Origin: Lachnospiraceae bacterium
GTDB lineage: Bacteria > Bacillota > Clostridia > Lachnospirales > Lachnospiraceae
Direction of reading: 5' to 3'
Length of the DNA: 51,719 nt
Assembly (NCBI GenBank): GCA_017626325.1
Contig: JAGAIZ010000065.1
Coordinates: forward strand, 1-51,719
The translations under genes were made by a program, and so were the position numbers. Below, in pieces: positions 11,623-14,600 of this stretch. How positions within the stretch are numbered: the stretch's first letter is position 1; each line of letters opens with the position of its first letter. The notes below the pieces were generated by a model that saw only the letters and a list, made by a program, of their open reading frames with translations, ran no database searches and was not told where the DNA came from.

Positions 11623-14600
11623 ATGGAAAGAAAAACAAGAAAACAGTTGTTTCGTAGAGGCTTAAGTGGAATTCTGTGTGCGGCTATGATTCTTACAGGC
11701 ATGTCCATACCTGAATTGACAGCCTATGCGGCCGTTCAGGATGAAGTACAGGACGATACAACTAAAGATGAACCCCAAAATGACGAAAATCAATTGGGGG
11801 GGGGTAGTTTGATCCCGAATGATGATTCACAGGGCGATGATTCTTCACAGGATGAGGATACGGAAGGCTCTAAAGAGGAGGATTCTGAAGACTCGGATGT
11901 GGATAATGAAGATGCGGATGTGAATAACGAAGACGCCGATACGGATGAAAGCGAAGACGACACAGACGTTGACGCGGATGAAACAGATTCTGACGCAGAG
12001 GATGCAGATGAGGAAGCAGAGGATGCGGAAGAGGGCGTCGGAGAATCTAAGAAGGACGACGATAAGAAAGAAGATTCCACGATAAAGCCGGATTCGGGAA
12101 TCGCCAGAACTGTAAAGAGTACGGACGAAGAGAAGGATTATATAAAGGACGGCGATTTTGGAATTGACTGGGAAGACGATGAACTCGGCAGTTGGGAGTT
12201 TGGCAGTTGGGATTGTGTAAGTGGAGCGATTCCAAGCGATTATCTGCCTCATAATGCCGGGGAAGCGGAGAATGACAAAAGTCTTGGTATTAAATTCACT
12301 GCTGACGGAACATTTGACGTATACCAGACGATTGGCGAGACGCTTCCGGCAGGAACCTATGAGCTTACGGCATGGGTGAGGAGCGCGGTGTCCGTGAAAG
12401 GCTTCCACGGAGCCTCTTACAGCAAGAGCGACCTTTCCTATGCGGAAAGCGATACGGAGGTGACTTCTGACTGGACGGAGATTACCCATGAATTTACCAT
12501 CAGATCAGAGATGACGGATTATGTGGTTGGCCTGGAGATAACCGCGCAGACCGACGCGTGGGTATGTCTGGACGACGTGTCCCTGATCTGTACAGAGGAA
12601 GGCGCCGAAGGCTATACGCTGGATGAGTTAAAGGCCTTGTATGACGCTGCGTCGGCCTTGATAGACGGCAAGACAGAAGCGGACTTTGAAGAAGGCTACA
12701 GCGCGCTTGTCACGGCGCTTGCCGCGGCGAAAGAACTGATTGACAGTAATTCTGCCGATACGGAGGCCGTCAATACAGCCTATACGGAGCTGGAAAAAGC
12801 AAAGAATGGACTGGTAACGGCTGATCTTGAGGTTACGCTGTACTATTATTATACAGGAGAAAAGGAACTGGGACTGGTGTCTTATAATGACGCGGGAGTG
12901 ATTACCTCCACGGCGGATAAGGCTTCCTGGTATGTCTGGAACAAGGAAGATACTTATCTGCTTGCGGAAGTGGAAGGCTACGACGGCTGGTACAGCATTC
13001 CGCTGTCTTTCCCGGGAACGGGCGACGCTACCGGTTTTGAAATATACGAGGGCAGCAGTAGCAGTAAGCTTGCTGTTTATTCCAACTGGGATAATGATAA
13101 TCGGGAAAGCTTTGCCAGCATCGCTTCGGGAGAAGAGGATGCGTATGCGCTGAAGGGCAGCTTCCTGTACGCGGGCGATATGGCGGCGGCTGTGATGCGC
13201 AATATTACATTGTATGTATACAGCACGGACAGTACGCCCAGACTGATGTCGAAAGCTGCGTTATCTGTTATTGACGAGTCCAAGGGCGAACAGACTGCCC
13301 TGACTGCGGACAGTACGGATTCCTATGGTAATAATTATTATAATATGGAGGCCGATGAAACCTATGACGACTGGTATTATCTGAGCTTCTCCGCGCCTGA
13401 TACAGATACGGTCTGTGAGTTATACGCAGGCGATACCTGGATCACCAAGTTTGTAAACAGTCAGACAGACAGCCAGTGGGAGACAGATTTCACACCGGTT
13501 TTTGCGGGTAAAATATATGCGACCTATGAAGGGACTACCGTTACGCTTTCGGACAGCCGCGATGTGACGCTGGGGATTTTGAAAGCGCTGCTGGAGTCAG
13601 AAGAGGTAACCGCTATTGTAACCGCGCATGAGGAAAACGCAGACTGCTATACCGCTGAGACATGGAGCGCGTTTGACAGCGCCAGATCAGAGGCGGAAAC
13701 TGTTGTAAGCAGCCATAGCGGCGAAGCGGATGATTACGCGTCGGAGGATATTACGGCGGCATACAATGCGCTCCTGGAAGCGATAGAGAATATACAGCGC
13801 AATGTTGACGACGTGACGCTCTACTATTATTCCGAAGCGTTAGCGGAGTACACTGATACGGACACGGAAGTATATGGTCTGTATATGTCAACATGGGATG
13901 AGACAAAAGTAAGCTCTTCGAAGGAAGCGGTAGCACTTAAGCAGAGCTGGGGCGATTATACCGCATTTGCCATGGATGAGGTGACTGACGAGGCGGTCAG
14001 CCATAATTATGAGAACTGGTACAGTGTGCCCGTAAAGGCACTGAACGCCGGAGATGGTGCGGATGGAGACGGCTTCCTTATTCAGGTAGGTAAGGCCGTG
14101 ACAGAAGAAGGCAGCACCACGCATACGGCTGTGCCCAGCGATAATAAGGTGATTACCTTAAGCGCGTGGGAGAACACAGCCATCTACCAGGCTGTTATAT
14201 CCGGTGAAACAGACAGCGTTTTCGTGATGGGAACGGAGATGTACGCTTCGATTGCCGAGGCGGAAGCGGCAGCCTTGAAGGCGCTTGTGGCGGAAGCGGA
14301 GGAATTGAAGGAAGAGGATTATAAACCGGCCGGCTGGGATGAGTTTACAGAAGCCTTAAAGGCGGCGCAGGACCTGCTGGCGACAGAATATCCGCCGCAC
14401 AAGGACCTTGCGGAGAAATATGACGCTTTAAAAGCGGCGATGGATGCGCTGGTTTCCAAGATCGAGTCAGAAATTAACGTGGCGAAGGTACCGCTTGCGG
14501 ATGACTTTATCACAGGCGCGGATTTATCTTCTTATCTTTCTCTGAAAGAAAGCGGCACCATATTTAAGGACAGCGAAGGCCATGCATTGTCTGACGCGGG

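Follow-up and report, generated by a model that had tools for sequence, protein, structure and literature searches.

The window, a stretch of 51,719 nucleotides from a Lachnospiraceae bacterium, carries the genes of a very large exoenzyme and of a subtilase between dnaJ and prmA, and each of the two is accompanied by a run of nine G residues (G9). The features are the following:

10174 to 11346, forward strand: dnaJ, the upstream neighbour of the GH53 gene (Pfam)
11515 to 11548, no strand assigned: perfect 15-bp inverted repeat with a 4-nt centre, upstream of the GH53 gene
11623 to 18987, forward strand: gene of a 2,454-residue exoenzyme with an apparent signal peptide, an acidic linker, FIVAR, a GH53 catalytic domain and Big_4 (translation, Pfam)
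11623 to 11733, forward strand: apparent signal peptide, residues 1–37, assigned by eye and not by a predictor; a similar N-terminus is found at the four tract-bearing relative loci
11796 to 11804, forward strand: G9 tract in the GH53 coding sequence, codons 58–60, a proposed translational on/off switch that is presently in frame
11805 to 11812, forward strand: TAGTTTGA, holding stop codons in both alternative frames, directly 3′ of the G9
19186 to 19191, forward strand: candidate -35 box TTGCAA (by eye), with an 18-bp spacer to the -10 box
19201 to 19209, forward strand: second G9, a proposed transcriptional switch that abuts the -10 box within the spacer of a sigma-A-type promoter
19210 to 19215, forward strand: candidate -10 box TATAAT (by eye)
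19299 to 19661, forward strand: 120-residue ORF, the first behind the tract promoter, without a Pfam match
19745 to 23773, forward strand: gene of a 1,342-residue subtilase (Peptidase_S8, Big_2; Pfam), apparently secreted (by eye), behind the tract promoter
23914 to 25266: DUF3048 gene between the subtilase gene and prmA (Pfam)
25507 to 26493, forward strand: prmA, the downstream neighbour (Pfam)

The catalytic domain of the large exoenzyme (residues 963–1339; PF07745, E 2.8e-112, profile positions 1–338 of 340 in Pfam) marks the product as a probable GH53 endo-beta-1,4-galactanase, for which hydrolysis of galactan is predicted. Read from the ATG at 11623, the codons across the tract are TTG GGG GGG GGT AGT TTG ATC, and the G9 starts at codon 58, after the 37 residues of the apparent signal peptide and 20 residues of the acidic linker, in agreement with the original prediction that a shifted product would comprise the signal peptide and the start of the linker. 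Both the G9 and the in-frame ORF of 2,454 residues are confirmed, and the recomputed product lengths (60 residues at G7, 62 at G8, 2,454 at G9, 61 at G10 and 63 at G11) bear out the truncation to 61–62 residues that had been predicted for the loss or gain of a single G. The immediate stop codons were rejected as strong evidence for a switch: both alternative frames are closed within four codons at 4.3% of the positions of the GH53 gene and at 6.8% of the linker positions, so that the quick stops are a minor feature, expected by chance at 4–7% of positions. Of the 201 glycine codons in the gene, 8 are GGG, fewer than for any other glycine codon, and of 75 Gly-Gly codon pairs in 29 genes of the window, the sole GGG-GGG pair is that of the tract. 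The GH53 tract is known in one state, in frame.

The second G9 sits between recognisable -35 and -10 boxes (by eye; the candidate -35 box agrees with TTGACA at 4 of 6 positions). In the porA promoter of Neisseria meningitidis, a poly-G likewise lies between -35 and -10, and the same spacer architecture is present at 19201, although here in another phylum, before another gene and known from sequence alone. It is on this promoter tract, together with the genome-wide tract set, that the case for switching rests, and it thereby extends beyond the GH53 tract that the original prediction considered by itself.

In the source genome (3.11 Mb, both strands), 80 G6, 6 G7, 2 G8, 4 G9, 1 G10 and 1 G13 runs were counted. 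Extrapolation of the decay from 80 to 6 gives ~0.04 runs of nine or more G (G9+) for the genome, against 6 observed, and even a deliberately generous decay ratio of 0.2 raises this expectation to only 0.8. A first-order base model of the window, on the other hand, expects 0.39 G9+ runs where 2 are observed, and by that model a G9 is unremarkable; the model overpredicts, as it also expects ~18 runs of G6 or longer in the window, whereas the two G9 are the only ones present. The tract is thus longer than composition predicts by the run spectrum of the genome, but not by the crude first-order model, and chance explains the GH53 G9 poorly.

The six G9+ tracts are distributed over contigs C3 (one), C43 (two), C49 (the two of the window) and C59 (one). 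Three of those outside the window are:

C3, position 23872 (L001): G9 in a family-2 glycosyltransferase (GT2) gene, out of frame
C43, position 52853: TTGATA, a 20-bp spacer ending in G13, and TATTAC (by eye), upstream of an FdtA (WxcM-like) gene
C59, position 21690: TTGATA, a 19-bp spacer ending in G10, and TAAAAT (by eye), before the gene of a protein with an apparent signal peptide, an acidic linker and Big_2

The FdtA gene on C43 additionally carries its own G9 at about residue 142, just past the first FdtA match and in frame. In all six cases, the G residues are on the coding strand of the gene that contains or follows the tract. Three tracts are coding (GH53, GT2 and FdtA), with two in frame (GH53, FdtA) and one out of frame (GT2), and three lie in promoter spacers where they touch the -10 box (TTGCAA-18-TATAAT, TTGATA-20-TATTAC and TTGATA-19-TAAAAT; all boxes by eye). 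The six closest congener relatives of the GT2 (59–68% identity) have no tract at that place, and in five of them the match is free of stops, with an internal stop in the sixth. Annotation pipelines would probably call the GT2 gene as two fragments or as a pseudogene. The two G8 runs occupy less informative positions: one lies 3′ of an apparent chemoreceptor gene and the other is on the non-coding strand of an apparent response-regulator gene (by eye).

Relatives of the exoenzyme were sought with residues 1–959 in 61 genomes (37 of the genus, including the source genome, and the remainder from other families), and a match was obtained in 8 of the 61, the source genome among them; a separate protein scan of genome contigs with the N-terminal 959 residues, from which the source genome was possibly excluded, returned no relative. 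The N-terminus is covered by eight loci in six congeners. The comparison with homologues that the original prediction had called for supports it in part, as four of these loci carry G7–G9 in the linker behind a similar signal peptide (G8 and G9 at two loci in G017, G7 in G025 and G7 in G036), whereas the other four (one each in G003 and G022, and two in G018) are free of a tract. The tract is therefore not a conserved part of the protein; its placement after the signal peptide recurs although the linker sequence itself is unconserved, in relatives that are matched by the N-terminus alone.

Within the genus, G9+ runs are present in 73 of 77 genomes, with 6 in the source genome and 87 in the richest (G005). 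We sampled 60 tracts from four congeners (all those listed for G016, G002 and G359, and 18 of 21 for G025), of which five were dropped for contig ends, N gaps or odd composition (L111, L117, L149, L151 and L152), leaving 55. The 55 were classified by a codon model that was right for 99 of 99 windows of its own training genes, with cut-offs that were chosen after the scores were seen. Fourteen appear to be coding to either side of the tract, some of them with weak scores. Ten of these 14 tracts are out of frame and four in frame, a count in which the out-of-frame share may be inflated, as the assemblies appear to be mostly draft or metagenome ones and a run of 10–11 G may be mis-sized by one. 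The in-frame genes encode a methyltransferase, an ornithine-cyclodeaminase relative, an AraC-type regulator and a protein without a Pfam match. Those out of frame encode CotH, a methyltransferase, a C5 DNA methylase, an acyltransferase, a DUF6020 membrane protein, an LRR protein and a repeat protein with Flg_new and Big_13 matches, and a further three (L119, L146 and L155) have no Pfam match but appear surface-like by eye. For two of the ten, the pieces before and after the frame break at the tract fall on successive stretches of one Pfam domain, at profile positions 2–211 and 237–322 in the C5 DNA methylase and 3–98 and 113–322 in the acyltransferase. The C5 cytosine DNA methylase (L122, G002:C110), out of frame at a G11, raises the possibility of a phase-variable methylome.

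Among the 41 noncoding congener tracts, many are without a clear -35 box. Pfam was run on 10 of the 34 ORFs behind them, chosen by us, and surface or envelope functions are represented by CpsB, a prepilin peptidase, flagellin, a Cache-domain protein, a solute-binding protein and an LRR protein; the presence of a formyl transferase, an ABC ATPase and a GntR regulator (one ORF had no match) indicates that the target set is not purely one of surface proteins. In two congeners (L103 and L126), a G10 precedes the flagellin ATG by a few bases, where initiation could be affected. The 55 tracts peak in length at 10 (32 of 55), and their flanks are alike and sharply defined, roughly AAAATTTTA on the 5′ side and TAAAA on the 3′ side. 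This motif is partly explained by -10 boxes, yet some coding tracts have it too. The idea that a mobile tract module was inserted was considered and rejected, as the flank motif is shared in the four congeners but absent by eye in G005 and G392.

G005 and G392 are the tract-rich congeners, with 87 and 78 G9+ runs, respectively. An anchored pattern was passed by 104 of their 165 tracts, 30 of which were made into loci (L280–L309). Exactly G9 is found at 27 of the 30, and the 13 that were called coding consist of 10 in frame, 2 out of frame and 1 that is really a promoter. Tract number alone was accordingly rejected as evidence for switching, and the tracts in these two genomes may reflect a tolerance of G runs instead. 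The same observation speaks for an alternative reading of the GH53 G9, by which it arose by chance and is neutral, the low-complexity Asp/Glu/Gly linker being without a fold and hence tolerant of such a run, so that switching would be unselected. The linker is indeed low in complexity and variable, half of the relative loci lack the tract, and the crude first-order model supplies a fraction of such a run in the window. We nevertheless consider a neutral origin unlikely: the six G9+ runs of the genome far outnumber those predicted from its run spectrum, the tract is built from the rarest glycine codon of the gene, and the tracts of the source genome coincide with surface and glycan genes and with promoter spacers, with out-of-frame copies in existence.

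The promoter class extends beyond the genus. The pattern GGGGGGGGTAWWAT occurs at 56 places in 41 of 299 family genomes, as opposed to 5 places for the reversed pattern. These 56 places were reduced to 30 loci (L040–L069), and to 29 on removal of L059, which has too little upstream sequence; a TTGACA-like hexamer (at least 5 of 6 positions) is found nine times among the 29 at a spacer of 18, 19 or 20, compared with four times in all over 25 other spacers. Pfam was run on 10 of the 25 ORFs behind these promoters, again chosen by us, and no clear functional theme is apparent among the ten, five of which have no match and the remainder of which are a choline-binding repeat protein, two ABC-type proteins, a permease and an aldolase. 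The signal is weaker across the phylum (33 versus 8 for the reversed pattern in 398 genomes). A GTDB-wide scan with TTGACA and TATAAT fixed, for the forward pattern alone, gave at least 120 stretches; about half of the 80 matches listed are from Clostridia or Bacilli, the others including Saccharibacteria, spirochaetes, Helicobacter and Streptobacillus, and among the matches listed is also a cultured strain, Blautia luti MSK.16.34, with the same promoter architecture.

Differences in length between genomes were observed at promoter-type tracts, while the GH53 gene has no close relative in the genomes searched. At the CpsB promoter (L107 and L147), 2,399 flanking bases are identical in G016 and G025 but the tract is 10 in one and 11 in the other, a difference that could be an assembly artefact given that a run of 10–11 G can be mis-sized by one. 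The whole query at this locus was found in G016 and G025 only, with ~80–105 bases shared by 13 other places in the genus. An identity over at least 2.4 kb around the CpsB gene in two species suggests a recent transfer or cross-binning. The homologue of the C43 promoter in G371 (82% over 224 columns) agrees with it in the -35 box and has 11 G in the tract as opposed to 13, and the remaining homologous tract pairs compared are too diverged to tell a change in length.

Errors of assembly or sequencing at homopolymers, by which the runs would be real but stable, could account for the out-of-frame tracts and for the length differences, and such errors are encouraged by the draft state of most genomes, by the ease with which G10–G11 runs are mis-sized and by the N gaps that adjoin some of the fetched tracts (L117, L151 and L152, which were dropped, and L116, which was kept). 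We judge this account to be very unlikely, as the coding-strand, promoter-spacer and split-domain patterns are independent of the exact G count, a frame break occurs at tracts of nine G too (GT2, L119), and the promoter architecture is that of the named, cultured B. luti strain. Another role for the tract, either in programmed ribosomal frameshifting (G runs can be slippery for ribosomes) or as a G-run binding or structural site that controls transcription, in place of heritable switching, would draw on the sharp flanks shared by the four congeners, which slippage alone does not explain, but is likewise very unlikely, given that the in-frame GH53 product is the full enzyme, that both shifted frames end at once and yield no alternative product, and that similar tracts occur in promoter spacers outside genes, where ribosomal frameshifting cannot act.

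The GH53 G9 is thus very probably a poly-G tract of slipped-strand phase variation, i.e. a contingency tract, in a Lachnospiraceae commensal. Such a reading, which the original prediction had put forward, gains support from the excess of runs, the coding-strand bias of the G residues, the positions of the other tracts, which are typical of phase-variable loci (within a glycan gene or in a promoter spacer), the out-of-frame copies, the recurring placement behind a signal peptide and the length differences between loci. Slipped-strand mispairing in replication would add or remove a G at a rate far above that of point mutation, such that one tract-length class in three would keep the exoenzyme in frame, and the other two would stop translation within a few codons, past the signal peptide, and leave no enzyme. 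The saving in synthesis cost that was proposed for an early stop in the off state is plausible as an argument. Seven kilobases downstream, a change in the length of the second G9 would alter the -35/-10 spacing and so tune the promoter of the secreted protease (subtilase). Both G9 would be part of an array of poly-G switches across the genome, mostly for surface proteins and glycan-building enzymes, and the cells of a clonal population would as a result differ from one another in their surface and secreted repertoires. That slippage occurs within a strain, is reversible and affects expression and the use of galactan, we infer from the tract pattern together with published work on other bacteria (PMC6321876, PMC11287997, PMC2831843).

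Poly-G switching is best known from pathogens, and both poly-G frameshifting and promoter-spacer switching are known mechanisms; of the Gram-positive genera considered here, Gardnerella belongs to another phylum than Lachnospiraceae. A close parallel in frame logic is with Campylobacter, in which, according to the PhasomeIt survey, poly-G tracts are mostly on the coding strand with lengths that peak at 9 and 10 and act by frameshift on/off, with 5–81 phase-variable genes per strain (PMC6321876). The present tracts are similar in strand, in the range of their most frequent lengths, in frameshift logic and in their several to dozens of copies per genome, and differ from those described there in that they occur in a Gram-positive Lachnospiraceae, that many lie in or near promoter spacers, that they are known from assembled sequence and that a giant galactan exoenzyme and a subtilase are among their targets. 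In Gardnerella, likewise Gram-positive and host-associated, a report describes abundant G/C runs of at least 8, ~70% of them upstream of ORFs, that are associated with surface proteins having FIVAR and InlB B-type repeats and that differ in length between colonies (PMC11287997); the abundance of G runs, the upstream location of many and a FIVAR-bearing target are shared, whereas colonies were sequenced in Gardnerella and assemblies serve here. The 5′ poly(A) tract of Listeria inlA gives a product of 8 residues on frameshift (PMC2831843), and as with GH53 a homopolymer near the 5′ end of a gene for a surface or secreted protein leads to a very short product, but inlA has a poly(A) tract much nearer to the start and GH53 a poly-G after the signal peptide. 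As far as the open-licence literature shows, the host group, the scale and the target, an exoenzyme for a dietary polymer, are new: no description of poly-G phase variation in Lachnospiraceae was found among the matches listed from open-licence PubMed Central literature (titles and starts of abstracts), and words beginning with firmicutes or lachnospir are absent from PMC11868660.

It is, on balance, somewhat probable that gut Lachnospiraceae, and not mucosal pathogens only, carry a multi-locus poly-G phasome, with switches in this genus that work both through the coding sequence and through the spacing of promoters and that extend to polymer-degrading exoenzymes, proteases, capsule, flagellin, chemoreceptors, pili and a DNA methyltransferase, by which clonal gut populations would hedge over the dietary polymers that they attack and over their surface. 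If so, reference genomes record one arbitrary state of the tract genes. Such a gene may then be wrongly annotated, either as a pseudogene or as a pair of short genes, and the fibre use predicted from a genome may not hold for many cells of the strain. A commensal genus with several poly-G switches per genome, one of them on a dietary-fibre enzyme, would be accessible to study in public metagenome reads.

As dnaJ and prmA are often adjacent in Firmicutes, the GH53 and subtilase genes between them look like an insertion. The DnaJ of the window is 92% identical to those of the two congeners tested and 91% to that of an uncultured Lachnospiraceae (L234), as compared with 77% for Acetatifactor (L207), 75% and 76% for two further Lachnospiraceae (L228 and L191) and 74% for Blautia luti (L214), which places the genus inside Lachnospiraceae. 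Finally, the inverted repeat at 11515–11548 resembles an operator of the LacI type and is possibly that of a LacI-type regulator; as it suggests a repressor site, regulation by the substrate may be layered on phase variation at the GH53 gene.
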